A program made the translations under genes and the position numbers. The notes under the pieces are model-generated. The model had not been told where the DNA came from. It saw nothing but the letters and a program-made list of their open reading frames with translations, and searched no databases. This document shows positions 4,959 to 21,485 of a stretch of 22,373 nucleotides of DNA, in pieces. The stretch is from a virus: positions 1-22,373 of the IMG/VR virus record IMGVR_UViG_3300024518_003488, one strand, 5' to 3'. Every line of letters starts with the position of its first letter. Within the stretch, counting starts at the first letter, position 1.

Positions 4959-4982
4959 ATGTTAAAAGAAAGTAAGAAAGTT

Positions 4983-5705
4983 ATGTTTAGAAAAAATAAA
5001 GATATTATTATTCAGACGAATGAAATTCCTGTGGATATATTAAAAAAGTTTTTATTAACTTTTCCACATAATTTACCTAAATATTTTAAAGATATACCCT
5101 CTCATTTTTTTGATAATCAAAAAAGACAAATACGATCTAAAAAAACGCTTAAGAGTTGCTCCGGATTTATAAATCTTTTTAAAAGATGTATTCTATTTAC
5201 CTCTCCCTACGATATTGAATTATTTATTGAACCTAAAGAAATTAAAGGTCATTTTGATATTAAGGGAATGGTTGGTGGATCTGTTTGGCACCGATATTTA
5301 CACCATCATGCCGATTGGCAATTTATTGATTATGTTAAAAGTGATTATGCTTTTATTCTTAAATTTATGCCTTTCTTTAATATTAGATGTCCTTATAATT
5401 TAATTCTTTCTAATCCATGGTGGCATATGAATAGTTTTGAGACTATTCCAGGGATGGTTAATTGTAAAGACCCCCTAGATTTGAACATTTTTATACCTAT
5501 CAAAAAGGGTCAAACTTACCTTTTTATTCCTCAAGGAGCTCCTTTAGCCTATATAAATTTTGAAACTGATGACCAATTAAATCTAGTTTATAAAAATAAA
5601 AATTATAAATACTCTGATTGGATGGGTCTCCACTATACTTTTAGTAATTTGAAAAATAAGCTGGTAAACAATATAATTAAAAAAATACATGGAACCAATA
5701 TTTGA
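4983..5705 (+). CDS. Accessory protein of unknown function, possible jelly-roll fold
   Basis: 240 aa from the ATG at 4983. An in-frame ATG at 4959 exists, but it abuts the terminator T-run and would add only MLKESKKV, so the later start is preferred; neither has a clear Shine-Dalgarno. The protein is rich in Phe, Tyr, Lys, Ile and Asn. The second half has WHRYLHHHADW, NLILSNPWWHMNSFETIPGM and LNIFIPIKKGQTYLFIPQG, a pattern of beta strands reminiscent of small jelly-roll or cupin-like phage proteins. Several His residues (HHHAD) could bind metal, but no complete facial triad is convincing. It overlaps the next gene, a 2OG-Fe(II) oxygenase, by 17 nt, suggesting a coupled pair. Its AT-richer codon use and lack of a ribosome site differ from the neighbouring virion genes. 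Function unknown. Confidence 0.7.
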   Translation: MFRKNKDIIIQTNEIPVDILKKFLLTFPHNLPKYFKDIPSHFFDNQKRQIRSKKTLKSCSGFINLFKRCILFTSPYDIELFIEPKEIKGHFDIKGMVGGSVWHRYLHHHADWQFIDYVKSDYAFILKFMPFFNIRCPYNLILSNPWWHMNSFETIPGMVNCKDPLDLNIFIPIKKGQTYLFIPQGAPLAYINFETDDQLNLVYKNKNYKYSDWMGLHYTFSNLKNKLVNNIIKKIHGTNI

Positions 5706-6231
5706 AGAAGATAATTTTATAAGTAAGGCTGCTTGTAAAAAGTTAATATCTTACCATAAAAATAATTGTCCAAAAGATGATACGTCTCATGGAGTTTGGA
5801 ATAATAGAATTGTTACTTCATACGATGATAGTATTAGAAATTTAATAAATTCTATTCACCATAAAGTTCTTTCTCTGGTTCAGAAATTTTATAAGGAAGA
5901 TGTATTATATCTAGAATTTAGTAATTTAGTTTATTGGGGTAAAGAAATGGAATTAGTACCTCATGCTGACAATTTTTGGATTGATAATCCTAAAAAACCT
6001 CATAATTGCTCTCATCGAGTTTATTCTTCTATTTTATATTTAAATAATAATTTTAAAGGTGGAGAAACTTATTTTCCAGGGCATAATTACAGTATAAAGC
6101 CAAAATCAGGGAAATTAACCTTTTATACATCGGGGGCAAAACATGTTCATGGTGTTAAAAAAGTTACTAGTGGGACAAGATATACCCTGGGAACTTGGTT
6201 TACAAAGGATCTAAACCGTAGTATACTGTAA
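5689..6231 (+). CDS. 2-oxoglutarate/Fe(II)-dependent oxygenase, prolyl 4-hydroxylase type
   Basis: 180 aa. The double-stranded beta-helix core is clear: metal ligands H92 and D94 in PHADNFW, the strand VYSSILYLNNNFKGGETYF (111-129), the distal H154 in HVHGV, and the 2OG-binding R164 in GTRYTLGTWF. All residues needed for Fe(II) and 2-oxoglutarate binding are present, so an active hydroxylase is expected. Length is at the short end for P4H-like catalytic domains, with only about 85 residues before the core. The substrate is unknown and could be a peptidyl proline, another residue, a sugar or a nucleobase. The start lies inside the preceding gene (17-nt overlap) and has no Shine-Dalgarno, consistent with translational coupling. 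Confidence 0.9.
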   Translation: MEPIFEEDNFISKAACKKLISYHKNNCPKDDTSHGVWNNRIVTSYDDSIRNLINSIHHKVLSLVQKFYKEDVLYLEFSNLVYWGKEMELVPHADNFWIDNPKKPHNCSHRVYSSILYLNNNFKGGETYFPGHNYSIKPKSGKLTFYTSGAKHVHGVKKVTSGTRYTLGTWFTKDLNRSIL

Positions 6232-13291: not shown

Positions 13292-14188
13292 ATGCCAATA
13301 ATCGCTTCAAGAGGTGCAGGATCTGGTAAAGGATTCGGAATGACAGCTGGAGCTCCATCATACATGGATGCTACAGGTGGAACAATTTACGACACAGGAA
13401 CTTACAGAATTCACTTATTTACTGGACCAGGCTCATTAATAGTTTCAAAAGTCCCCGACCCAGCGTTTGCAACAGCAGACTATCTGGTTATTGGAGGAGC
13501 AGGAGGAACAGCTCCCTCAGGTCGAGGTACATGCGCAGGAGGATACAGAGAATCTGCACCAGCGGGTGGTGTATGGGTATCAGCTCCAATGGCAAATACA
13601 ACTGGAACTCCGAGCCCACTTGGAACTCAAACTTTAACGGCAACAACTTATCCTATTACAGTAGGAGCAAAAGGTGCTCCTCAACCTTCACAAAATACAC
13701 AAGGTAATCCAGGAACAGCTTCAACATTTTCAAATATTACATCTGCCGGAGGCGGCGGATCTGGAGTAGGACACTACACTCAACCTGTAAAAAGCGCACC
13801 GGGACTTCCGGGCGGATGCGGGGGAAGTGGTGGTGGATATCCTCCAAATACTGCAGCTACAGGTGGAAATGGAAACACTCCACCTACAACTCCACCTCAA
13901 GGACAAAATGGTGCTTGGAATGGTGGCGGAGGAGCTCTTTCAGCTGCTGATTCATCAGGAACAGCAACATCAGGTCAAGGAGCTGGAACAGAATTTGCTG
14001 GCGGTTTTCCAAACTTTGGAGTACCAGGACCATCTGCCCCACTAAGATATAATGCTGGTGGAAGCGGACAAGGAGGATCTGGAGACGCTAGTTCTAACTA
14101 TCCCGGACCTACTGGACCGGAATTATCGTACGGTGCTGCAGCATCACCTGGCGATGGCGCGGTTCTGATAAGGTATCAATACGCATAA
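13292..14188 (+). CDS. Glycine-rich adhesin / receptor-binding tip protein
   Basis: 298 aa. Residues 30-70 are beta strands ending in ADYLVIGGAGG, the usual entry to phage glycine-rich domains. From about 68 to 290 the protein is dominated by Gly with Pro, Ser, Thr and Asn, with runs such as SAGGGGSGVG, GGCGGSGGGYPP, NGGGGALSAA and YNAGGSGQGGSGD, and it closes GDGAVLIRYQYA. T-even gp38-type adhesins use stacked polyglycine helices joined by variable loops to contact receptors. The same arrangement of conserved Gly runs and variable loops is seen here. Proline-containing loops (YPGPTGP, NTPPTTPPQG) are notable because proline-hydroxylase-type genes follow. AGGAGG lies upstream of the ATG. Confidence 0.75.
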   Translation: MPIIASRGAGSGKGFGMTAGAPSYMDATGGTIYDTGTYRIHLFTGPGSLIVSKVPDPAFATADYLVIGGAGGTAPSGRGTCAGGYRESAPAGGVWVSAPMANTTGTPSPLGTQTLTATTYPITVGAKGAPQPSQNTQGNPGTASTFSNITSAGGGGSGVGHYTQPVKSAPGLPGGCGGSGGGYPPNTAATGGNGNTPPTTPPQGQNGAWNGGGGALSAADSSGTATSGQGAGTEFAGGFPNFGVPGPSAPLRYNAGGSGQGGSGDASSNYPGPTGPELSYGAAASPGDGAVLIRYQYA

Positions 14189-14667
14189 TGGCACATTTCG
14201 CTAAAATAGATGACAATAATATTGTTTTAAGAGTTGATCCTTTAGCTGACTCTATAGCTACAGACGAAGCAGCTGGACAAGCTCACCAAGAAACACATAC
14301 TGGTTGGCCTGCAGCAAAATGGATTCAAACAGATAACAAGACTAAAAGAAATGCACACTTAGATGGTGGCACTCCTTTTAGAGGAAATTTCGCTGCGGTT
14401 GGCTATGAATGGGATGCAGCAAATGATGTTTTTTGGCCACCAAAAGGTAATCACCCAGGTTCTTGGGTAAAAAATAATTCAACAGCAGACTGGGAATCTC
14501 CAGCAGGTTTAATACCAGCTCTTGATGATGCTAAAAAACTTACACATTTTTGGAAGTGGGATGAAGACAATACACAGTGGGTTGACACAGAATACCCTAC
14601 ACCAATTCCGCAAGCTGATTATGATGCAGCAGAAGACAAAGAAGAAATACTTGGAAGAAAAAGATAA
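14188..14667 (+). CDS. Fibre-associated virion protein, marine-phage family
   Basis: 159 aa. It starts MAHFAKIDDNNIVLRVDPLA and contains HTGWPAAKWIQTDN, FRGNFAAVGYEWDAANDVFW and PGSWVKNNSTADWESP. This series is a familiar protein in cyanophage and marine phage genomes, found beside tail fibres, with Trp/Gly/Asn loops and no catalytic residues. Start overlaps the adhesin stop by 1 nt (TAATG), so the two are translated together. It may be a fibre tip accessory or chaperone; the sequence does not decide. It is the last gene before the accessory cassette. Confidence 0.7.
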   Translation: MAHFAKIDDNNIVLRVDPLADSIATDEAAGQAHQETHTGWPAAKWIQTDNKTKRNAHLDGGTPFRGNFAAVGYEWDAANDVFWPPKGNHPGSWVKNNSTADWESPAGLIPALDDAKKLTHFWKWDEDNTQWVDTEYPTPIPQADYDAAEDKEEILGRKR

Positions 14668-14689: not shown

Positions 14690-15241
14690 ATGGAAAAGAA
14701 AGTATTATCCGAAATAGCACTTTATCATGGGGATGTTAAAAGACCCAAAGGTTATGAAATTAATCGGCATGAAATTAAAGCCGCTATTTTACAAGCTCAA
14801 CTGGAAAGAAAAACAGTAACTGATAGTGAATATAGCTATAGATTTTTTGACTATAAGTTAGATTTTTCAAAAAATATAGGGTACGTCCATGACCATCTGA
14901 GGGACTATTTTCTATTACAATACAAAAGACATCTTGCACCAGTTCTAAGTTTTGGTAATATTTTACAATATAGAGAACAATCTTTTTCTAGAAAATGCCT
15001 AGATGAAACTTGTTTGAAAAATGAACCAGATTATGTAATGATTTATGGAGTAGATGTAGCCCAAGATTCTACTAATGTTGTTATTGAATATGATGACAAT
15101 AGAAGAAATGATAAAACTTGGCATGTGCCTTTAAACAACAATGGATTTGTTATGTTTCCTACAACACAAAGATTTTTTATTACAGGAAATATTGCTCATC
15201 AACCTAATTTCTTTTTATTAACAACTTTTGAACTTATATGA
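14690..15241 (+). CDS. Unknown protein opening the oxygenase cassette
   Basis: 183 aa. The first half is mixed helix and charged (ALYHGDVKRPKGYEINRHEI). The second half is beta-rich: DYVMIYGVDVAQDSTNVVIE, TWHVPLNNNGFVMFPTTQRF and FFLLTTFELI. Strand spacing and the 'G-F-V-M-F-P' turn resemble the end of a 2OG-oxygenase double-stranded beta-helix, but no HxD...H triad can be placed, so if related it is non-catalytic or highly diverged. No Shine-Dalgarno. Its end overlaps the next gene by 4 nt (ATGA). First gene of eight overlapping accessory genes. Confidence 0.65.
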   Translation: MEKKVLSEIALYHGDVKRPKGYEINRHEIKAAILQAQLERKTVTDSEYSYRFFDYKLDFSKNIGYVHDHLRDYFLLQYKRHLAPVLSFGNILQYREQSFSRKCLDETCLKNEPDYVMIYGVDVAQDSTNVVIEYDDNRRNDKTWHVPLNNNGFVMFPTTQRFFITGNIAHQPNFFLLTTFELI

Positions 15242-15864
15242 ACCTATCAAATTATTACTATTACTTTCAATCGGCTATTCCACATAGACTTTGTGATGAT
15301 ATCATAAGACTTGGTAAAGACAGGAAAGAAGCTGAAAAAATAGGAATGACTGGGGGCATGGAAGCAGGAAGAGACATGAAGAAAAATCCTTTATCTAAAA
15401 AAGAACTTAAAGATTTAAGAAAACTAAGAGATTCAAATATTACTTGGATGAGTGACCCATGGTTATATAATTTAATTCATCCTTTTATTCATTCTGCTAA
15501 TATACATGCGGATTGGAATTATACGTGGGACTCTAGCGAAGCTTGCCAATTTACGAAATATAGTAAAGGTCAATATTATGGTTGGCATTGTGATACTTGG
15601 GATAAAAAGTATAAAGATCAAAAAGTAAGAAAGTTATCAGTGACAGTTACTTTAAGTGATCCTTCGGAATATGAAGGGGGAGACTTAGAATTTGATTTTA
15701 GAAATGTGGATCCGGATAAAAAAAGAAATGTTGTGGTAGCGGACATAAAACCCAAAGGTTCTATAGTTATATTCCCGAGTTTTGTTTGGCATCGAGTTAA
15801 GCCAGTAAAAAGTGGAACAAGATATTCTTTAGTTATATGGAATCTGGGGTATATGTGGCAGTAA
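15238..15864 (+). CDS. 2-oxoglutarate/Fe(II)-dependent oxygenase, PKHD type
   Basis: 208 aa. Metal ligands H117 and D119 in GWHCDTW, the strand RKLSVTVTLSDPSEYEGGDL (131-150), distal H185 in FVWHRVKPV and 2OG-binding R195 in GTRYSLVIW are all present. The QFTKYSKGQYYGWHCD approach to the HxD is typical of PKHD-type (PiuC-like) hydroxylases, and the length is usual. It should be a working Fe(II)/2OG hydroxylase of unknown substrate. It begins by an ATGA overlap with the previous gene and overlaps the next by 28 nt, so it is part of a continuous coupled block. It is unlike the oxygenase at 5689 except for the core motifs, which argues against recent duplication. Confidence 0.92.
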   Translation: MNLSNYYYYFQSAIPHRLCDDIIRLGKDRKEAEKIGMTGGMEAGRDMKKNPLSKKELKDLRKLRDSNITWMSDPWLYNLIHPFIHSANIHADWNYTWDSSEACQFTKYSKGQYYGWHCDTWDKKYKDQKVRKLSVTVTLSDPSEYEGGDLEFDFRNVDPDKKRNVVVADIKPKGSIVIFPSFVWHRVKPVKSGTRYSLVIWNLGYMWQ

Positions 15865-16550
15865 GTTTTAAAAAAAATAAATACTGTATAATTAGAAAGG
15901 CTGTTTCAAAAGAGATTGCTAATTTTATTTATAATTATTTTTTAATTAAACGACAGGTTTCCAGAACATTGTTTGATGAAAACGCAATTTCACCGTTTAG
16001 TAGTGAATTTGGTGTGTGGAATGATGCTCAAGCTCCTGATACCTTTAGTCATTATTCTGACGTTGCTATGGAAACTTTATTATTAAGATGTCAACCTCTT
16101 ATGGAAAAACATACAGGATTAAAACTATTACCGACTTATTCTTATGCTAGAATTTATAAAAATGGAGATATACTTAAAAGACATAAAGACAGACAGAGTT
16201 GTGAAGTATCTACTACAATGTTTTTAGGAGGAGATTTTTGGCCTATTTTTTTAAGCCCTAATGAAAATGTAGGAATTCATGCTGGCCCTAATGCAAAACC
16301 AGGTACTACTTTTTCTAGTGATGCCAAAGGAGTTAAAGTCGATTTAAAACACGGAGATATGTTAGTTTATGATGGAATGCAATTAGAGCATTGGAGAGAA
16401 GTTTTTACTGGTAAAGCGTGTGCGCAAGTCTTTTTACATTACAATACAGATACACCTCAAAATAAACAAAATATGTTTGATACGCGACCCCATCTAGGTC
16501 TTCCTACGTATTTTCAAAGAGCTAAAAGATTTAAAGCTTATGATCGTTGA
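15837..16550 (+). CDS. 2-oxoglutarate/Fe(II) oxygenase-like protein, atypical cosubstrate site
   Basis: 237 aa. H116 and D118 in RHKDRQSCEVS and H185 in LEHWREVF give a complete metal triad. The preceding YSYARIYKNGDILK and the strand GVKVDLKHGDMLVYDG fit the fold. The usual Arg on the last strand is not in the standard place: the sequence there is AQVFLHYN, with Q197 in the position normally followed by the cosubstrate-binding Arg/Lys. Other marine phage homologues I recall show the same QVFLHY, so it is a family trait, not a mutation. Function unknown. Starts within the previous gene (28-nt overlap), no Shine-Dalgarno, and the C-terminal 40 residues are a basic extension. Confidence 0.8.
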   Translation: MESGVYVAVSFKKNKYCIIRKAVSKEIANFIYNYFLIKRQVSRTLFDENAISPFSSEFGVWNDAQAPDTFSHYSDVAMETLLLRCQPLMEKHTGLKLLPTYSYARIYKNGDILKRHKDRQSCEVSTTMFLGGDFWPIFLSPNENVGIHAGPNAKPGTTFSSDAKGVKVDLKHGDMLVYDGMQLEHWREVFTGKACAQVFLHYNTDTPQNKQNMFDTRPHLGLPTYFQRAKRFKAYDR

Positions 16551-16869
16551 GAGATTTTCTAAATATCTTAATGCTATAGAATACCCTAAAGAAAAAACGT
16601 CTTGGAATATCGCTGGAATTTTAAAATCTAAAAATGCTTTTTATAAATTTGATGTTCGAAACCTGAAGCAAGAATCTAAGAATCATTTATTTCAAACAGG
16701 TAAAACAAACACAAAAGCTGATAAAATGGTTTTTGAATTTAAAGATGAATGGATTATACTAGACATTGAAGAATTACATAAGTATATAGAAATTAATAAA
16801 GGAAAAGAGTTTAATCTTGATGATTTACTTAAGAAATTAGAATGGAACATAGTAGTAAAAAAATATTAG
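16540..16869 (+). CDS. Small unknown protein in the cassette
   Basis: 109 aa, Lys-rich. The N-terminus reads FSKYLNAIEYPKEKTSWNIA. The middle has HLFQTGKTNTKADKM followed by a strand and a charged helix (FEFKDEWIILDIEELHKYIE) and an end of leucine-rich helix (LDDLLKKLEWNIVVKK). No known fold or catalytic motif can be assigned. It overlaps the previous gene by 11 nt and the carbamoyltransferase N-terminal gene by 28 nt. Constant company with the carbamoyltransferase suggests a partner, for instance a binding or regulatory subunit; this is a guess. Confidence 0.68.
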   Translation: MIVERFSKYLNAIEYPKEKTSWNIAGILKSKNAFYKFDVRNLKQESKNHLFQTGKTNTKADKMVFEFKDEWIILDIEELHKYIEINKGKEFNLDDLLKKLEWNIVVKKY

Positions 16870-17774
16870 GTATTAATATATCCCATCATCCATCTGTATG
16901 TATTTATGAAAATAACAAAGTAAAAGAGTTTTATAATGAAGAACGATTTGTATTAACTAAAAACCTTTTACCTGATGAAACAACTGAGATTTATCAATCT
17001 ATTCTACAAAAAATAGATTTTAAACCAGACTTTGTTTGTTATGTTTCTTTTGGAAGAAACTATTCTTATTTTTCTTGTACCGATCAAATGATTATAGATC
17101 GAATCCAAAAACAATTAGATCATCCTCCGTATTATTTTGATATTAAAGAACATCATTTATATCATGCTATCACTGCTTTTTACTTTTCGAAGTTTAAAGA
17201 AGCAGCTGCTATTGTAGTAGATGGAGGAGGAGCTTGTAAATTTTTTATTCCTTATCAAGAAGTTGAGTCTATTTATTTACTTAATAGTAAAGATATTATT
17301 CCTGTTTATAAACATAGTAGTAATTATAGATGTAATAAAAACTTTCATATTGAAATGCCTCAACATGAAACCTTTGTTTATTTAAATGGTTTTAAAAATA
17401 AGTTTTCAACTAAATGTGTAGGAGGAATGGCTTTTGAAGAAGCTACGATTGCTGCTGGTTTTAAAGATGCCAATGATGCCGGTAAACTTATGGGGTTATC
17501 TTCATACGCGTACACGGATAAGAAATATCCTTTAGATTATAACAAAGTTAAAATTGCTAAAGAAGTACAAGAAAAAACATTTGAAGATACTTGTAAACTC
17601 ATAGATCAAGCACCCAGTAAAAATATAATATTATCGGGTGGTTATTTTTTAAATTGTTCTAATAATTTTAAATACGTAAAAAAATACCCTCAGTTAAATT
17701 TCTTTGTGGATCCCATACCCCATGATGCAGGAACAGCAATAGGAGCAGCTATTTATTATGATACATATAAATAA
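16842..17774 (+). CDS. Carbamoyltransferase, N-terminal (ASKHA) part, separate gene
   Basis: 310 aa, corresponding to the N-terminal Kae1-like domain of the NodU/CmcH/TobZ carbamoyltransferases, which use carbamoyl phosphate and ATP to make a carbamoyl-adenylate and pass it to a hydroxyl of a sugar or antibiotic. Visible motifs: LGINISHHPSVC (9-20), metal-site-like EHHLYHA (103-109), VVDGGG (125-130), AGKLMGLSSYA (213-223), ILSGGYFLNCSNN (263-275) and DPIPHDAGTAIGAA (290-303). The C-terminal half normally fused to it is instead encoded by the next gene, which starts 17 nt before this stop in another frame. Both halves are intact in motifs, so a two-subunit enzyme is likelier than a decayed one. 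Confidence 0.87.
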   Translation: MEHSSKKILGINISHHPSVCIYENNKVKEFYNEERFVLTKNLLPDETTEIYQSILQKIDFKPDFVCYVSFGRNYSYFSCTDQMIIDRIQKQLDHPPYYFDIKEHHLYHAITAFYFSKFKEAAAIVVDGGGACKFFIPYQEVESIYLLNSKDIIPVYKHSSNYRCNKNFHIEMPQHETFVYLNGFKNKFSTKCVGGMAFEEATIAAGFKDANDAGKLMGLSSYAYTDKKYPLDYNKVKIAKEVQEKTFEDTCKLIDQAPSKNIILSGGYFLNCSNNFKYVKKYPQLNFFVDPIPHDAGTAIGAAIYYDTYK

Positions 17775-18267
17775 AGCAGTAGAGATTCTTTTAGATCAAA
17801 AACCCTTAGTCCTTTATCAAAAGGAAAGTGAATGGGGACCTAGAGCTTTAGGGAATAGATCTATATTATTTGATCCCAGAAACGTCAAAGCTAAAGAGAT
17901 AGTCAATAAATTTAAAAAAAGAGAATGGTGGAGGCCTTTAGCTGGCACTGTTCTTTTAGAACATGCCCATGATTATTTTGATTTTGGTACATTAAAAGAA
18001 AGTCCTTATATGTCTTTTGCTGTATTAGCTAAGCCAAAAGCACAGGAAGAAGTCCCTTCTCTTGTACACGTAGATAATACTTGTAGAATTCAAACGATTG
18101 ACAAAGGTCAATACCACAATTTGATAGAAATGTTTTATCATGAAACAAATGTCCCTTTACTTTTAAATACTTCTTTTAATTTAGCTGGTTATCCTATTGT
18201 AGAAAATAAAGAGTTTTTAAAATTCACTATGAATTCATCGGAGTTTGAACACGTTTATGAAGTTTAG
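17758..18267 (+). CDS. Carbamoyltransferase, C-terminal part, separate gene
   Basis: 169 aa, matching the C-terminal (YrdC-containing region's partner, Carb_trans_C) part of carbamoyltransferases: ESEWGPRALGNRSILFDPR (23-41), KKREWWRPLAGTVLLE (53-68), HVDNTCRIQTI (104-114) and PLLLNTSFNLAGYPIV (133-148). These are the most conserved segments of the family. The linker of some tens of residues that usually precedes the GPRALGNRS motif is short. It starts with its own ATG, overlapping the upstream half by 17 nt. A +1 frame change would be needed to fuse the two; no slippery site is evident. Expected to pair with the upstream product. Confidence 0.87.
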   Translation: MIHINKAVEILLDQKPLVLYQKESEWGPRALGNRSILFDPRNVKAKEIVNKFKKREWWRPLAGTVLLEHAHDYFDFGTLKESPYMSFAVLAKPKAQEEVPSLVHVDNTCRIQTIDKGQYHNLIEMFYHETNVPLLLNTSFNLAGYPIVENKEFLKFTMNSSEFEHVYEV

Positions 18268-19003
18268 TTTTCTTTGTGCATTACCCAGAACGGGAGCTAC
18301 CTTATTAGGTGCTATCATTAATCAAAGTAAACAAATTAAAATGACTCCTAATAGTATACTTCCAGAAGTTTTTCTAAACTTATTTAATACTAAAGAGTCT
18401 AGTGTATTTAAGAACTTTCCTTATCATAAAGGAATAGACAACATTATTTTAAATGTATTTAATAACTATTATAAAGATATCAAAGCTGATCATATTTTAG
18501 ACAAAGGCCCTTGGGGTACTCCTTATCATTTAGAAATATTAAAAAGTATGTTTAAAGAAAGAAGGTTTGTTATCTTAGTTAGACCTGTTTTAGAATGTTT
18601 AGCGTCTTTTATTAAAGCAAGGAGAGATAATAAAGACATTGAATTGTTTTGTGATAGTCTAATGGATCCTGATCATGGTATTTTAGGAAAGAATATATGG
18701 GCTATTAATCATTTAATTAAGAATAAAGAGAAGCATATTATCATTACTTATGACGATTTTGTTACCCATCCCCAAAAAGAACTCAATAGAATCTTTAGAT
18801 TTTTAAAACTTAAACCAGAAAAGTTAGATTTAAATAATTTAAAACAATATACGTTTGAGGGTATGGGCTATGATGATACACATGTTGAGGGTCCTTTTCA
18901 TTCTATCGATGTAGACAAAGTAAAAAAAGTAAACTATAAAGTAGAAGATTATTTACCTAAGACAATAATAGACAGATATAAGAATGCCCGACTCATTTTA
19001 TAA
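18257..19003 (+). CDS. PAPS-type sulfotransferase
   Basis: 248 aa from the ATG at 18257; a TTG at 18245 would add four residues, but GGAG at 18240-18243 would be only 1 nt from it, versus 13 nt from the ATG. Near the N-terminus FLCALPRTGATLLGAIINQ contains the 5'-phosphosulfate binding loop (LPRTGATLL). ERRFVILVRPVLECLASF holds the 3'-phosphate binding Arg and Ser (about residues 109 and 117). A DKGPWGTPYH segment and IITYDDFVTHP further support the fold. It should move sulfate from PAPS to a hydroxyl on a sugar or protein. The acceptor is not predictable. It overlaps both neighbours (11 and 20 nt). Confidence 0.88.
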   Translation: MKFSFLCALPRTGATLLGAIINQSKQIKMTPNSILPEVFLNLFNTKESSVFKNFPYHKGIDNIILNVFNNYYKDIKADHILDKGPWGTPYHLEILKSMFKERRFVILVRPVLECLASFIKARRDNKDIELFCDSLMDPDHGILGKNIWAINHLIKNKEKHIIITYDDFVTHPQKELNRIFRFLKLKPEKLDLNNLKQYTFEGMGYDDTHVEGPFHSIDVDKVKKVNYKVEDYLPKTIIDRYKNARLIL

Positions 19004-19544
19004 TAAAGGATTTTTAAATCCCAAACAGATTAAACAATTAAACAAGTTTATAGAAGCTAATTATTCTCATATCGAAGATCCAGCCAATACCGCTAGAAAT
19101 GAAGATGGCTCTTCTAGGAAGAAAACTAAAACTCTCATCATTTATAGACATCAAATCAAAAAACTCATTCATACATTAGAGACCTATGTACACTATGTAA
19201 ATAATCATTATTTTGGCTATGATTTAAATCCCTTTAATGATCATGATGTGTGCTTATACAATATATATGAGTCCAGTAATCAAGGTGAATATCGTTATCA
19301 TGTTGATACTTCTAGGTCAGACGTGTATGATATCAAATTAACTATTATAGTTAATTTATCTAATAAGGCTTTTGAAGGTGGTGAATTCTATATTTTTAAT
19401 GGAGGAGAATATGAGACTGAAGAAATCAAACAGCCTGGTACTATTCTTATTTTAAAATCTTATTTAAATCATAAAGTTTCCCCTGTTATTTCAGGCCAAA
19501 GGAAGACTCTAACGTTTTTTGCTAGAGGACCGCGGTTAAAATAG
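18984..19544 (+). CDS. 2-oxoglutarate/Fe(II)-dependent oxygenase
   Basis: 186 aa. H106 and D108 in YRYHVDTS, the strand KLTIIVNLSNKAFEGGEFYI (118-137), a GTILILKS turn, H163 in LNHKVSPV and R173 in GQRKTLTFFA give the full Fe(II)/2OG site of a P4H-like hydroxylase. About 100 residues precede the HxD and are mostly helical. It overlaps the sulfotransferase by 20 nt and closes the cassette. No Shine-Dalgarno is apparent. It differs from the three other oxygenases of the window outside the core motifs. Substrate unknown. Confidence 0.9.
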   Translation: MPDSFYNKGFLNPKQIKQLNKFIEANYSHIEDPANTARNEDGSSRKKTKTLIIYRHQIKKLIHTLETYVHYVNNHYFGYDLNPFNDHDVCLYNIYESSNQGEYRYHVDTSRSDVYDIKLTIIVNLSNKAFEGGEFYIFNGGEYETEEIKQPGTILILKSYLNHKVSPVISGQRKTLTFFARGPRLK

Positions 19545-19583: not shown

Positions 19584-21485
19584 ATGCCACTAAAGAAACT
19601 AGGAATTAAACCAGGATTTAACAAACAAGCAACAGCATCGGGCGCAGAAGGTGAATGGATCGATGGTGATTATGTTAGATTTAGATATGGACTACCTGAA
19701 AAGATAGGAGGTTGGCAACAACTTACCATTGCTGAAAAGGAGCTTCCTGGAGTAGCGAGAGCTCAGCTTGTATGGACAAGTTTAGCTGGTGAAAAATATG
19801 CTGCTATTGGAACTCATAAGGGTTTATTTTTATATTATGGGGAAGATTTCTACGACATTACACCTTTAAACGCAGCTGTTACCTTATGTACGTTTACTTC
19901 AACAACTAGCTCAACAGAAGTCACAATCAACAAAGCTTCTCATGGCTTTGTTGCTGGAGATTATATTGTATTTTCATCTGTTACTTTACCGGGCGCAGGC
20001 GCTACGGGATACACGATAACAACTTTTGAAGAAACAGTTTATGAAGTTATTACTGCTGCTACAAACACTTTTACTATTACCATGGCATCACAAGAAACAG
20101 GAACAGGTATGACCGCTGCAGGATCTTGCTCAGCTGCTTCTTATATTGAAGTTGGTCCTTCTTTTCAAACTGCAGGTTATGGTTGGGGAACTTACCTTTG
20201 GGGCGATTCATCATGGGGAACTGAAAGAACAACATCAAATGTTATTTTAGATCCAGGTAATTGGTCTCTCGATAATTTTGGTCAAATTTTAATTGCAACA
20301 ATATTTAACGGAAAGACTTTTACGTGGGACGCAGGCGCAGCAAATCCAAGAACGAATCGAGCCACTCTTATGTCGAACGCACCAACAGCAACACGACTAA
20401 CTCTTGTTTCAGATAGAGATAGACACTTATTTCATTTTGGAACTGAAACTACTATTGGTACACCTTCAACACAAGATCCAATGTTTATTCGTTGGTCACA
20501 ACAAGAAAATTATACGATCTACACACCAACAGCTACTAATACAGCCGGAACGTTTAGACTCGACACGGGAAACAAGATTGTAGGAGCTATTAACGCTAAA
20601 GACTATGTACTAGCTTTAACGGATCGAGCAGCTTATGTTATTCAATATATAGGACCCCCTTATACTTTCTCGGTAAGACAAGTGGGAACAAATTGTGGTT
20701 TAATTGGTCAACATGCTGTTAGCTTTTCTAATGGTAAAGTTTTTTGGATGTCACAAGAAGGAGGCTTCTTTGTATTTGATGGTACCGTTAAATCTTTACC
20801 TTGTTTAGTTGAAGACTTTGTTTTCAATACTGATGGAACTAACTTAGGAATTAATTATGATTCCTCAGAAACTATTTATTCATCTCATAATTCTTTATAT
20901 TCTGAAGTTAATTGGTTCTATCCAAAATTTGGTTCTACTCAAATTAATAGATGCGTAACTTATAATTTCGCTGAAAATGTTTGGACAACATCTTCATTAC
21001 CAAGAACAACTTATGTCGATCAAGGCGTATTTAATTTACCTTACGCTACCGAATACAATGCAACACAAATCCCTACCTTTCCTATTCAAGGAATTACAGG
21101 TACTGCTGGAGCTTCTACTTATTATTCTCATGAAACGGGAACCGATCAAATTTTAGCAGGAGTCACATCAGCTATCCCTGCTTACATTAGATCTGGAGAT
21201 ATGGATATTGAAGATGGAGAAATATTCTCTTCTGTAAGAAGATTTATACCGGATTATAAATATATAACTGGTAATTCAAAAATTACAGTTTTCTTGAATG
21301 ATTATCCAAACAACACAGCAACAAGCTCACCTTTGGGACCATTTACAGTTTCATCTACAACTGATAAAGTAGATACAAGAGCAAGAGGAAGATTAATAAG
21401 CTTTAAAATAGAAAATGATTCAACAGGGGAAACCTGGAGATATGGCACATTAAGAGTTGATGCTCAACCTGATGGAAGAAGATAA
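19584..21485 (+). CDS. Tail nozzle / tail hub protein (P22 gp10 / T7 gp12-like)
   Basis: 633 aa. The N-terminal GFNKQATASGAEGEWIDGD, then VRFRYGLPEKIGGWQQL, is typical of the large tail proteins of short-tailed phages. The body is beta-rich with propeller-like repeats (KDYVLALTDRAAYVIQYIG, GKVFWMSQEGGFFVFDGTV), and the end TRARGRLISFKIENDSTGE, then RYGTLRVDAQPDGRR, is characteristic. A GWGTYLWGDSSWG stretch (W201, W206, W211) repeats the Trp-triplet motif of the 10305 protein. It would form the hexameric nozzle below the neck adaptors. The start has no Shine-Dalgarno. Family placement is by recognised terminal motifs and overall plan, not by alignment. Confidence 0.75.
   Translation: MPLKKLGIKPGFNKQATASGAEGEWIDGDYVRFRYGLPEKIGGWQQLTIAEKELPGVARAQLVWTSLAGEKYAAIGTHKGLFLYYGEDFYDITPLNAAVTLCTFTSTTSSTEVTINKASHGFVAGDYIVFSSVTLPGAGATGYTITTFEETVYEVITAATNTFTITMASQETGTGMTAAGSCSAASYIEVGPSFQTAGYGWGTYLWGDSSWGTERTTSNVILDPGNWSLDNFGQILIATIFNGKTFTWDAGAANPRTNRATLMSNAPTATRLTLVSDRDRHLFHFGTETTIGTPSTQDPMFIRWSQQENYTIYTPTATNTAGTFRLDTGNKIVGAINAKDYVLALTDRAAYVIQYIGPPYTFSVRQVGTNCGLIGQHAVSFSNGKVFWMSQEGGFFVFDGTVKSLPCLVEDFVFNTDGTNLGINYDSSETIYSSHNSLYSEVNWFYPKFGSTQINRCVTYNFAENVWTTSSLPRTTYVDQGVFNLPYATEYNATQIPTFPIQGITGTAGASTYYSHETGTDQILAGVTSAIPAYIRSGDMDIEDGEIFSSVRRFIPDYKYITGNSKITVFLNDYPNNTATSSPLGPFTVSSTTDKVDTRARGRLISFKIENDSTGETWRYGTLRVDAQPDGRR

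Follow-up and report, generated by a model that had tools for sequence, protein, structure and literature searches.

A variable tail-locus island in a Pelagibacter-phage-like contig: prolyl-hydroxylase-type oxygenases, their covariation with prolines of a neighbouring adhesin, and optional carbamoyl- and sulfotransferase genes

The viral contig IMGVR_UViG_3300024518_003488 of IMG/VR (22,373 bases, GC content 0.36; the whole stretch is referred to as the window) encodes, inside its tail module, a block of eight overlapping open reading frames (ORFs) that includes 2-oxoglutarate (2OG)-Fe(II) oxygenases, a carbamoyltransferase divided between two genes, and a sulfotransferase of the type that uses 3'-phosphoadenosine-5'-phosphosulfate (PAPS). 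We propose, giving the idea about an even chance of being correct, that this block is a tail-locus island for post-translational tailoring, which would hydroxylate prolines of the phage's own glycine-rich adhesin and optionally decorate it with carbamoyl and sulfate groups. The proposal builds on gene content, conserved catalytic residues, gene order in related loci and a covariation between adhesin prolines and oxygenase genes, together with folds that are partly predicted; the hydroxylation of the adhesin and the activities of the enzymes are themselves predicted from sequence. The nozzle-like protein of the window shares 65% identity with its counterpart in Pelagibacter phage HTVC027P and 60% with the one in HTVC023P, and its capsid protein is 82% identical to that of HTVC027P, a relatedness to abundant ocean phages from which a host of the SAR11 type is likely.

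Results

Adhesin prolines vary together with the hydroxylase genes

The proposal centres on the following features of the window, in which proteins are named after the first position of their genes.

13292..14188, + strand: glycine-rich adhesin-like protein, the proposed hydroxylase substrate (298 aa, 23% Gly, 10.4% Pro)
13871..13903, + strand: conserved proline motif GNTPPTTPPQG of the adhesin, whose second proline tracks oxygenases of the 15238/15837 type
14188..14667, + strand: conserved marine phage protein 14188, between the adhesin and the hydroxylases (no Pfam or NCBIfam match)
14690..15241, + strand: putative pseudo-oxygenase of prolyl-4-hydroxylase fold, without the HxD...H metal site (AlphaFold2, Foldseek, alignment of relatives)
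15238..15864, + strand: 2OG-Fe(II) oxygenase A, prolyl/PKHD-hydroxylase type (PF13640, 5e-17; phrog_61; H117, D119, H185 and a downstream Arg)
15837..16550, + strand: 2OG-type oxygenase B, start codon uncertain (phrog_2954; H116, D118, H185; predicted fold)

Adhesins were collected by scanning for the motif GNTPxxxPxQG, with the position of the second proline left open, fixed as Pro or fixed as a Ser-like residue, and were counted as linked when 15238/15837-type oxygenases lay no more than 4 kb behind them on that strand; the motif counts given next use adhesins with 3 kb or more of sequence downstream. Such oxygenases follow 51 of the 53 GNTPP adhesins and 9 of the 51 adhesins with another residue in second place (odds ratio 119, p 1e-17, a p value that treats related sequences as independent and is hence too small). 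Counted in the other direction, the GNTPP motif occurs in 51/60 adhesins with these oxygenases downstream, as compared with 2/44 without; in one of the two exceptions (L372) the oxygenases lie on the other strand, and in the other (L443) none is in reach. The column of the second proline is the most oxygenase-associated of all columns of the adhesin alignment, with the second proline of an SPP pair ranking fourth, and proline is the most different of the 20 amino acids between adhesins with and without the oxygenases (8.1% vs 3.6%; area under the curve (AUC) 0.93). Neither GC content nor the neighbouring genes explain this covariation: other ORFs of the same contigs show no such proline difference (AUC 0.59), the proline-rich group has the lower GC content, opposite to the GC-rich codons of proline, and the contrast holds inside the 0.40-0.48 GC bin (16/22 vs 0/18).

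Several observations weigh against the adhesin as the substrate or limit the link to it. There are 24 adhesins that lack the second proline and still have 15238/15837-type oxygenases, and the GNTPP adhesin of L443 has none within reach. Shared descent of adhesin and oxygenases could by itself produce the covariation: along an adhesin tree built with the motif left out, which is poorly resolved, the oxygenase state changes about 18 times, only 1 independent pair falls on well-supported branches, and tree-based independent contrasts lacked power. The profiles used to detect oxygenases came from this phage group and can miss distant 2OG families, as happened with DSL-LC04 until the profile set was widened. 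Moreover, many relatives, e.g. HTVC027P, have opposite-strand oxygenases and only a collar-type protein, so the wider oxygenase family must act on something besides the adhesin; because no glycine-rich adhesin of this type was seen in the HTVC027P-type group, the oxygenases there must have another substrate, perhaps the collar-type protein. Finally, the basic residue that commonly binds 2OG could not be pinpointed in 15837, and it is position alone that ties carbamoyl and sulfo transfer to the adhesin.

Four proteins of the block with a prolyl-hydroxylase fold, found or predicted

A prolyl-4-hydroxylase fold was found or predicted for four of the eight block proteins, and the metal site is kept in 15238, 15837 and 18984 but not in 14690. 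Proteins 15238 and 18984 score above the PF13640 cut-off and align with the HxD, the distal His and the downstream Arg, 15238 also giving a partial match to NF003974. Protein 15837, which has no Pfam match, is a member of phrog_2954, a family whose label 'ferrochelatase' is widespread, with relatives in HTVC023P, HTVC033P, HTVC008M and cyanophages. Its H116, D118 and H185 are invariant in 47 sequences, as are R187 and Q197, with no clear Arg or Lys at the usual spacing after the distal His. The AlphaFold2 model of 15837 (predicted local distance difference test (pLDDT) 89.4) has the Pseudomonas putida prolyl-4-hydroxylase 4iw3 as its best fold match, and among the 50 best fold matches listed are prolyl hydroxylases and other 2OG oxygenases but no ferrochelatase. 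On the strength of this predicted fold, 15837 and with it phrog_2954 most likely represent a 2OG oxygenase of the prolyl-hydroxylase type and not a ferrochelatase.

The model of 14690 (pLDDT 88.8) matches 2rg4, PHD2, the P. putida prolyl-4-hydroxylase and PBCV-1 vCPH in Foldseek, and no histidine is conserved across 38 relatives, so that the HxD...H site is absent. Because it combines a prolyl-hydroxylase-like fold with no conserved histidine, 14690 is best read from its model as a pseudo-oxygenase, possibly a partner or chaperone. For 15837 and 14690 the fold predictions were decisive, as profile-profile comparison with 15238 and, for 15837, a sequence-profile search of the PDB were uninformative. 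The likeness to the P. putida (EF-Tu) and PBCV-1 enzymes is one of fold, at about 8-15% identity; 14690 differs from them in lacking the metal site, and the substrate in the window is a candidate. The first half of phrog_3531 matches 15837 and its second half 15238, which suggests that natural fusions of the two exist.

The pairing of a 2OG oxygenase with a 'ferrochelatase' has been published for this phage type (PMC9599517), is seasonally enriched (PMC11561400), and involves the same families as in the window, phrog_61 and phrog_2954. It has been read toward heme metabolism, i.e. as auxiliary metabolism by which the phage would manipulate host iron, heme or metabolites, whereas our reading makes phrog_2954 a family of 2OG-type oxygenases and ties the pair to the adhesin and its prolines. 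With an invariant HxD...H in a predicted prolyl-hydroxylase fold, and a ferrochelatase Pfam match in none of 37 phrog_2954 members, we regard the metabolic interpretation of the pair as very improbable.

The block is one assortment of a variable island

The remaining genes of the block and its right-hand neighbour are as follows.

16540..16869, + strand: small conserved protein, 109 aa (relatives upstream of the nozzle gene in many + strand loci)
16842..17774, + strand: carbamoyltransferase, Kae1-like half (transfer domain; PF02543, 1.3e-15; phrog_1601; H104, H108, D127, D295)
17758..18267, + strand: carbamoyltransferase, YrdC-like half (carbamoyl-adenylate-forming domain), a separate gene in the +1 frame (PF16861, 1.4e-47; phrog_1601)
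18257..19003, + strand: PAPS-type sulfotransferase (PF13469, 1.3e-11; PF00685, 1.5e-9; PAPS motifs)
18984..19544, + strand: 2OG-Fe(II) oxygenase C (PF13640, 8.1e-10; H106, D108, H163 and a downstream Arg)
19584..21485, + strand: nozzle / tail stabilisation-like virion protein, right-hand border of the variable locus (phrog_3287, 2e-84)

An earlier sequence-only reading of the window had described eight overlapping genes between the adhesin genes and the nozzle gene, and this description is borne out: all eight ORFs (14690-19544) are on the + strand, flanked by the glycine-rich adhesin and 14188 genes on one side and the nozzle-like gene 19584 on the other, and the overlaps of 4, 28, 11, 28, 17, 11 and 20 nt hold exactly with the sulfotransferase start placed at ATG 18257, its longest ORF beginning at TTG 18245. 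The first 28-nt overlap is an upper bound, as relatives of 15837 open with MSFKKNKY and its true start may be a few codons downstream. Within the block, the + strand showed no terminator-like site. The families that had been named, namely 2OG-Fe(II) oxygenases, a two-gene carbamoyltransferase and a PAPS sulfotransferase, were recovered by profile (PF13640, PF02543/PF16861, PF13469/PF00685) or by phrog_2954 membership and predicted fold. The two proteins left as unknowns have parted ways, since 14690 has acquired the fold described above and 16540 gave no significant match in family profile searches.

Relatives fetched with the nozzle protein, a sample not chosen for the cassette, comprise 80 loci, 44 of them complete from the fibre gene to the nozzle gene. 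A 2OG oxygenase is present in 44/44 of the complete loci, a carbamoyltransferase in 5/44, and a sulfotransferase and the entire cassette in 1/44 each (L036, the same contig as L007); the block is for this reason one assortment of a variable island, with the oxygenases as its constant element. All 12 loci with a 14188 homologue carry + strand oxygenases, L040 having others on the - strand too, and in 31 of the 32 loci without one the oxygenases are only on the - strand. In L030, L038, L059, L071, L107 and others, which lack the glycine-rich adhesin and 14188, the opposite-strand oxygenases lie between fibre and nozzle genes.

L007 carries the full cassette too, at about 52-81% protein identity, and L002, L003 and L113 have parts of it, and from 16540 to the sulfotransferase the order and overlaps are kept in L007 at 68-81% identity. 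The cassette that had been put forward as a single late-gene unit is thus real and recurs in other phage contigs, but as one of several combinations of a variable locus.

A scan with 14690 returned at least 597 relatives, and gene order was examined in the best 80, many of them short contigs. The order adhesin-14188-14690-15238-(x)-15837 is almost invariant in these 80 loci, with 14188 found in 78, the 15238 family in 77, the adhesin in 69 and the 15837 family in 56. The block accordingly splits into a core (adhesin, 14188, 14690, 15238, 15837) and the optional carbamoyltransferase pair, sulfotransferase and 18984. In many of the 14690 loci, and in L108 (8235-13931), two to four glycine-rich adhesin genes stand in tandem ahead of the hydroxylase core, an arrangement that would suit adhesin switching.

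HTVC023P and 023Pt_psg01 have homologues of the adhesins, 14188, 14690, 15238 and 15837 in the same order as the window, before the nozzle gene. The HTVC023P-type Pelagibacter phages (HTVC023P, HTVC027P, 023Pt_psg01) share the nozzle and capsid families of the window, but HTVC023P and 023Pt_psg01 have no carbamoyltransferase or sulfotransferase in this place, and HTVC027P differs in its opposite-strand oxygenase genes and the lack of the glycine-rich adhesin.

Outside the block, a further PF13640 oxygenase (5689-6231) directly follows the capsid gene and overlaps gene 4959-5705 (phrog_7084), and a gene for a GroES-like co-chaperonin (phrog_3188) lies at 1331-1831, upstream of the capsid genes.

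The carbamoyltransferase is split into two genes

Proteins 16842 (PF02543) and 17758 (PF16861) are the two halves of a carbamoyltransferase of the NodU/CmcH/TobZ type, and catalytic residues are retained in both. The division of labour is known from GdmN, where carbamoyl phosphate is adenylated by the YrdC-like domain and transfer of the carbamoyl group falls to the Kae1-like one (PMC9633730). The iron ligands H133, H137, D156 and D333 of GdmN correspond to H104, H108, D127 and D295 of 16842; the spacing of the first three is identical (H-x3-H, then 19 to Asp), and the position of D295 agrees with the fourth. The Kae1-like and YrdC-like domains with iron ligands are those of a class III O-carbamoyltransferase, but where TobZ, GdmN and NodU keep both domains in one polypeptide, the window has two separate proteins from overlapping genes.

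The split recurs in about a dozen contigs (44-95% identity), and in nearly all of them the downstream ATG is embedded at the same place, in TAT-TAT-GA (Tyr-Tyr-Asp/Glu) codons; because of this recurrence with the ATG placement kept, the split gene is real and no assembly error. L059 has the downstream ATG at another position, and in L008/L009 a separate ORF lies between the halves. Programmed frameshifting to fuse the halves was rejected, as the downstream gene starts at an ATG of its own, preceded by an AGGAG-like sequence, and the intervening ORF of L008/L009 also counters it. Fused forms occur in the relatives L016, L017, L047 and L062. A split phage enzyme is not new in itself, since cyanophage S-RIM44 already has two genes, in the reverse order to that of the window. 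An apparent fused oxygenase-carbamoyltransferase in S-SCSM2R was set aside: the gene named '2OG-Fe(II) oxygenase' there spans the carbamoyltransferase match and is probably misnamed. Nothing was found in a genome scan with the 17758 protein on its own.

The sulfotransferase and a possible supply of PAPS

Besides its PF13469 and PF00685 matches, 18257 has both the 5' (PRTGATLL) and the 3' (RPVLECLASF) PAPS motifs of a PAPS-dependent sulfotransferase, with residues invariant in 9 sequences. Directly after the sulfotransferase gene, L007 (11212-11917) and L003 (2189-2894) encode a small P-loop protein resembling adenosine-5'-phosphosulfate (APS) kinase and then a cytidylyltransferase-like protein; both genes are absent from the block of the window. 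The P-loop protein of L007 matches APS kinase just above the cut-off (22.8 vs 21.1 bits), and the second protein matches PF01467, a superfamily that includes ATP sulfurylase. Judged from these matches, the gene pair could provide a minimal supply of PAPS, which would fit PAPS-dependent sulfation. We dropped an argument against the sulfotransferase based on a lack of PAPS in the presumed SAR11 host, because genomes of a SAR11 family hold PF13469 sulfotransferases (43/118) and near full-length APS-kinase matches (about 23). A flavin-dependent halogenase-like protein, called by eye, is encoded in L016 (11149-12573) and in the same tail island of L017, where its gene adjoins two sulfotransferases, a fused carbamoyltransferase and several oxygenases.

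Discussion

In the proposed scheme, 15238 and 15837 would hydroxylate prolines of the adhesin 13292, including those of its GNTPPxxPPQG motif, as the adhesin is made late in infection, and the catalytically dead 14690 would probably assist them. As an optional and weaker part of the scheme, 17758 would make carbamoyl-adenylate from carbamoyl phosphate and ATP and 16842 would pass the carbamoyl group on, such that the carbamoyltransferase, the sulfotransferase 18257 and the oxygenase 18984 may further decorate the adhesin, conceivably at the freshly made hydroxyls or at a sugar. A tail tip decorated in this way would change what it binds or resists. Of the targets suggested by the sequence-only reading (phage fibre, host envelope glycan or small molecule), the phage's own glycine-rich adhesin is favoured for the hydroxylases, and little can be said on the target of carbamoyl and sulfo transfer. 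A complete adhesin-maturation pathway, in which one pseudo-oxygenase and two oxygenases serve prolyl hydroxylation and some phages then also O-carbamoylate and O-sulfate that adhesin, at times with PAPS of their own supply, is a tentative and rather doubtful extension.

The optional genes might instead be independent cargo of a permissive, fast-changing tail locus, with unrelated targets, the hydroxylase core alone acting on the adhesin. Carbamoyltransferase pairs do occur at several unrelated positions, i.e. downstream of the nozzle gene (L004-L006), after the capsid gene (L010) and on the minus strand (L059, L082), and they are scarce among complete loci (5/44), the full set more so (1/44). 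However, L007 preserves the stretch from 16540 to the sulfotransferase, and carbamoyltransferases are repeatedly found beside the same oxygenases in varied arrangements (L011-L015, L047, L062, L059); we consider cargo of this kind a somewhat unlikely explanation, to be kept in mind.

It is also conceivable, though unlikely, that carbamoyl, sulfate and hydroxyl groups are placed on glycans or proteins of the host surface, hiding receptors or blocking superinfection, in the manner of Nod-factor decoration by NodU and NodH/NoeE. A match to NodU is given by the C-terminal carbamoyltransferase half (100 vs 1000 bits) and a weak one to NoeE by the sulfotransferase (20 vs 500 bits), both far below the equivalog cut-offs; homologues of the carbamoyltransferase exist in bacterial genomes including SAR11, where sulfotransferases are found as well, and L007 and L003 may make PAPS. 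Against this speak the position of the block in the late tail module, the way in which its core follows the adhesin gene and the adhesin prolines, and the lack of any glycosyltransferase or sugar-nucleotide gene in it.

Returning to the adhesin as the favoured substrate, glycine-rich stretches in a tail-tip protein encoded beside fibre genes are known from the phage adhesins S16 gp38 and Pam3 gp24 (PMC9608196), to which 13292 is likened by composition; its proline-rich motif and the hydroxylase genes beside it set it apart. Work on viral genes from the Baltic Sea pointed out that collagen, which may be a component of viral tail fibres, is a substrate of prolyl 4-hydroxylase, and called the viral use of the enzyme cryptic (PMC9301287). 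Marine phage oxygenases, carbamoyltransferases and sulfotransferases are each already known singly; searches of open-licence papers did not turn up the adhesin linkage, the proline covariation, the pseudo-oxygenase or the reassignment of phrog_2954.

The best reading of the island is that of a widespread hydroxylase core with optional carbamoyl and sulfo enzymes. Among the extra genes of marine phages, those for 2OG oxygenases rank with the most frequent, and they tend to be classed as auxiliary metabolism with no substrate assigned; the covariation names a concrete candidate, the prolines of the neighbouring adhesin, and the cultured relative HTVC023P offers a test system. The phage 'ferrochelatase' label of phrog_2954, widely used and carrying published ecological conclusions, most likely denotes a prolyl-hydroxylase-type oxygenase. 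If the complete adhesin-maturation pathway exists, adhesin and tailoring enzymes would evolve together as a chemical host-range system.

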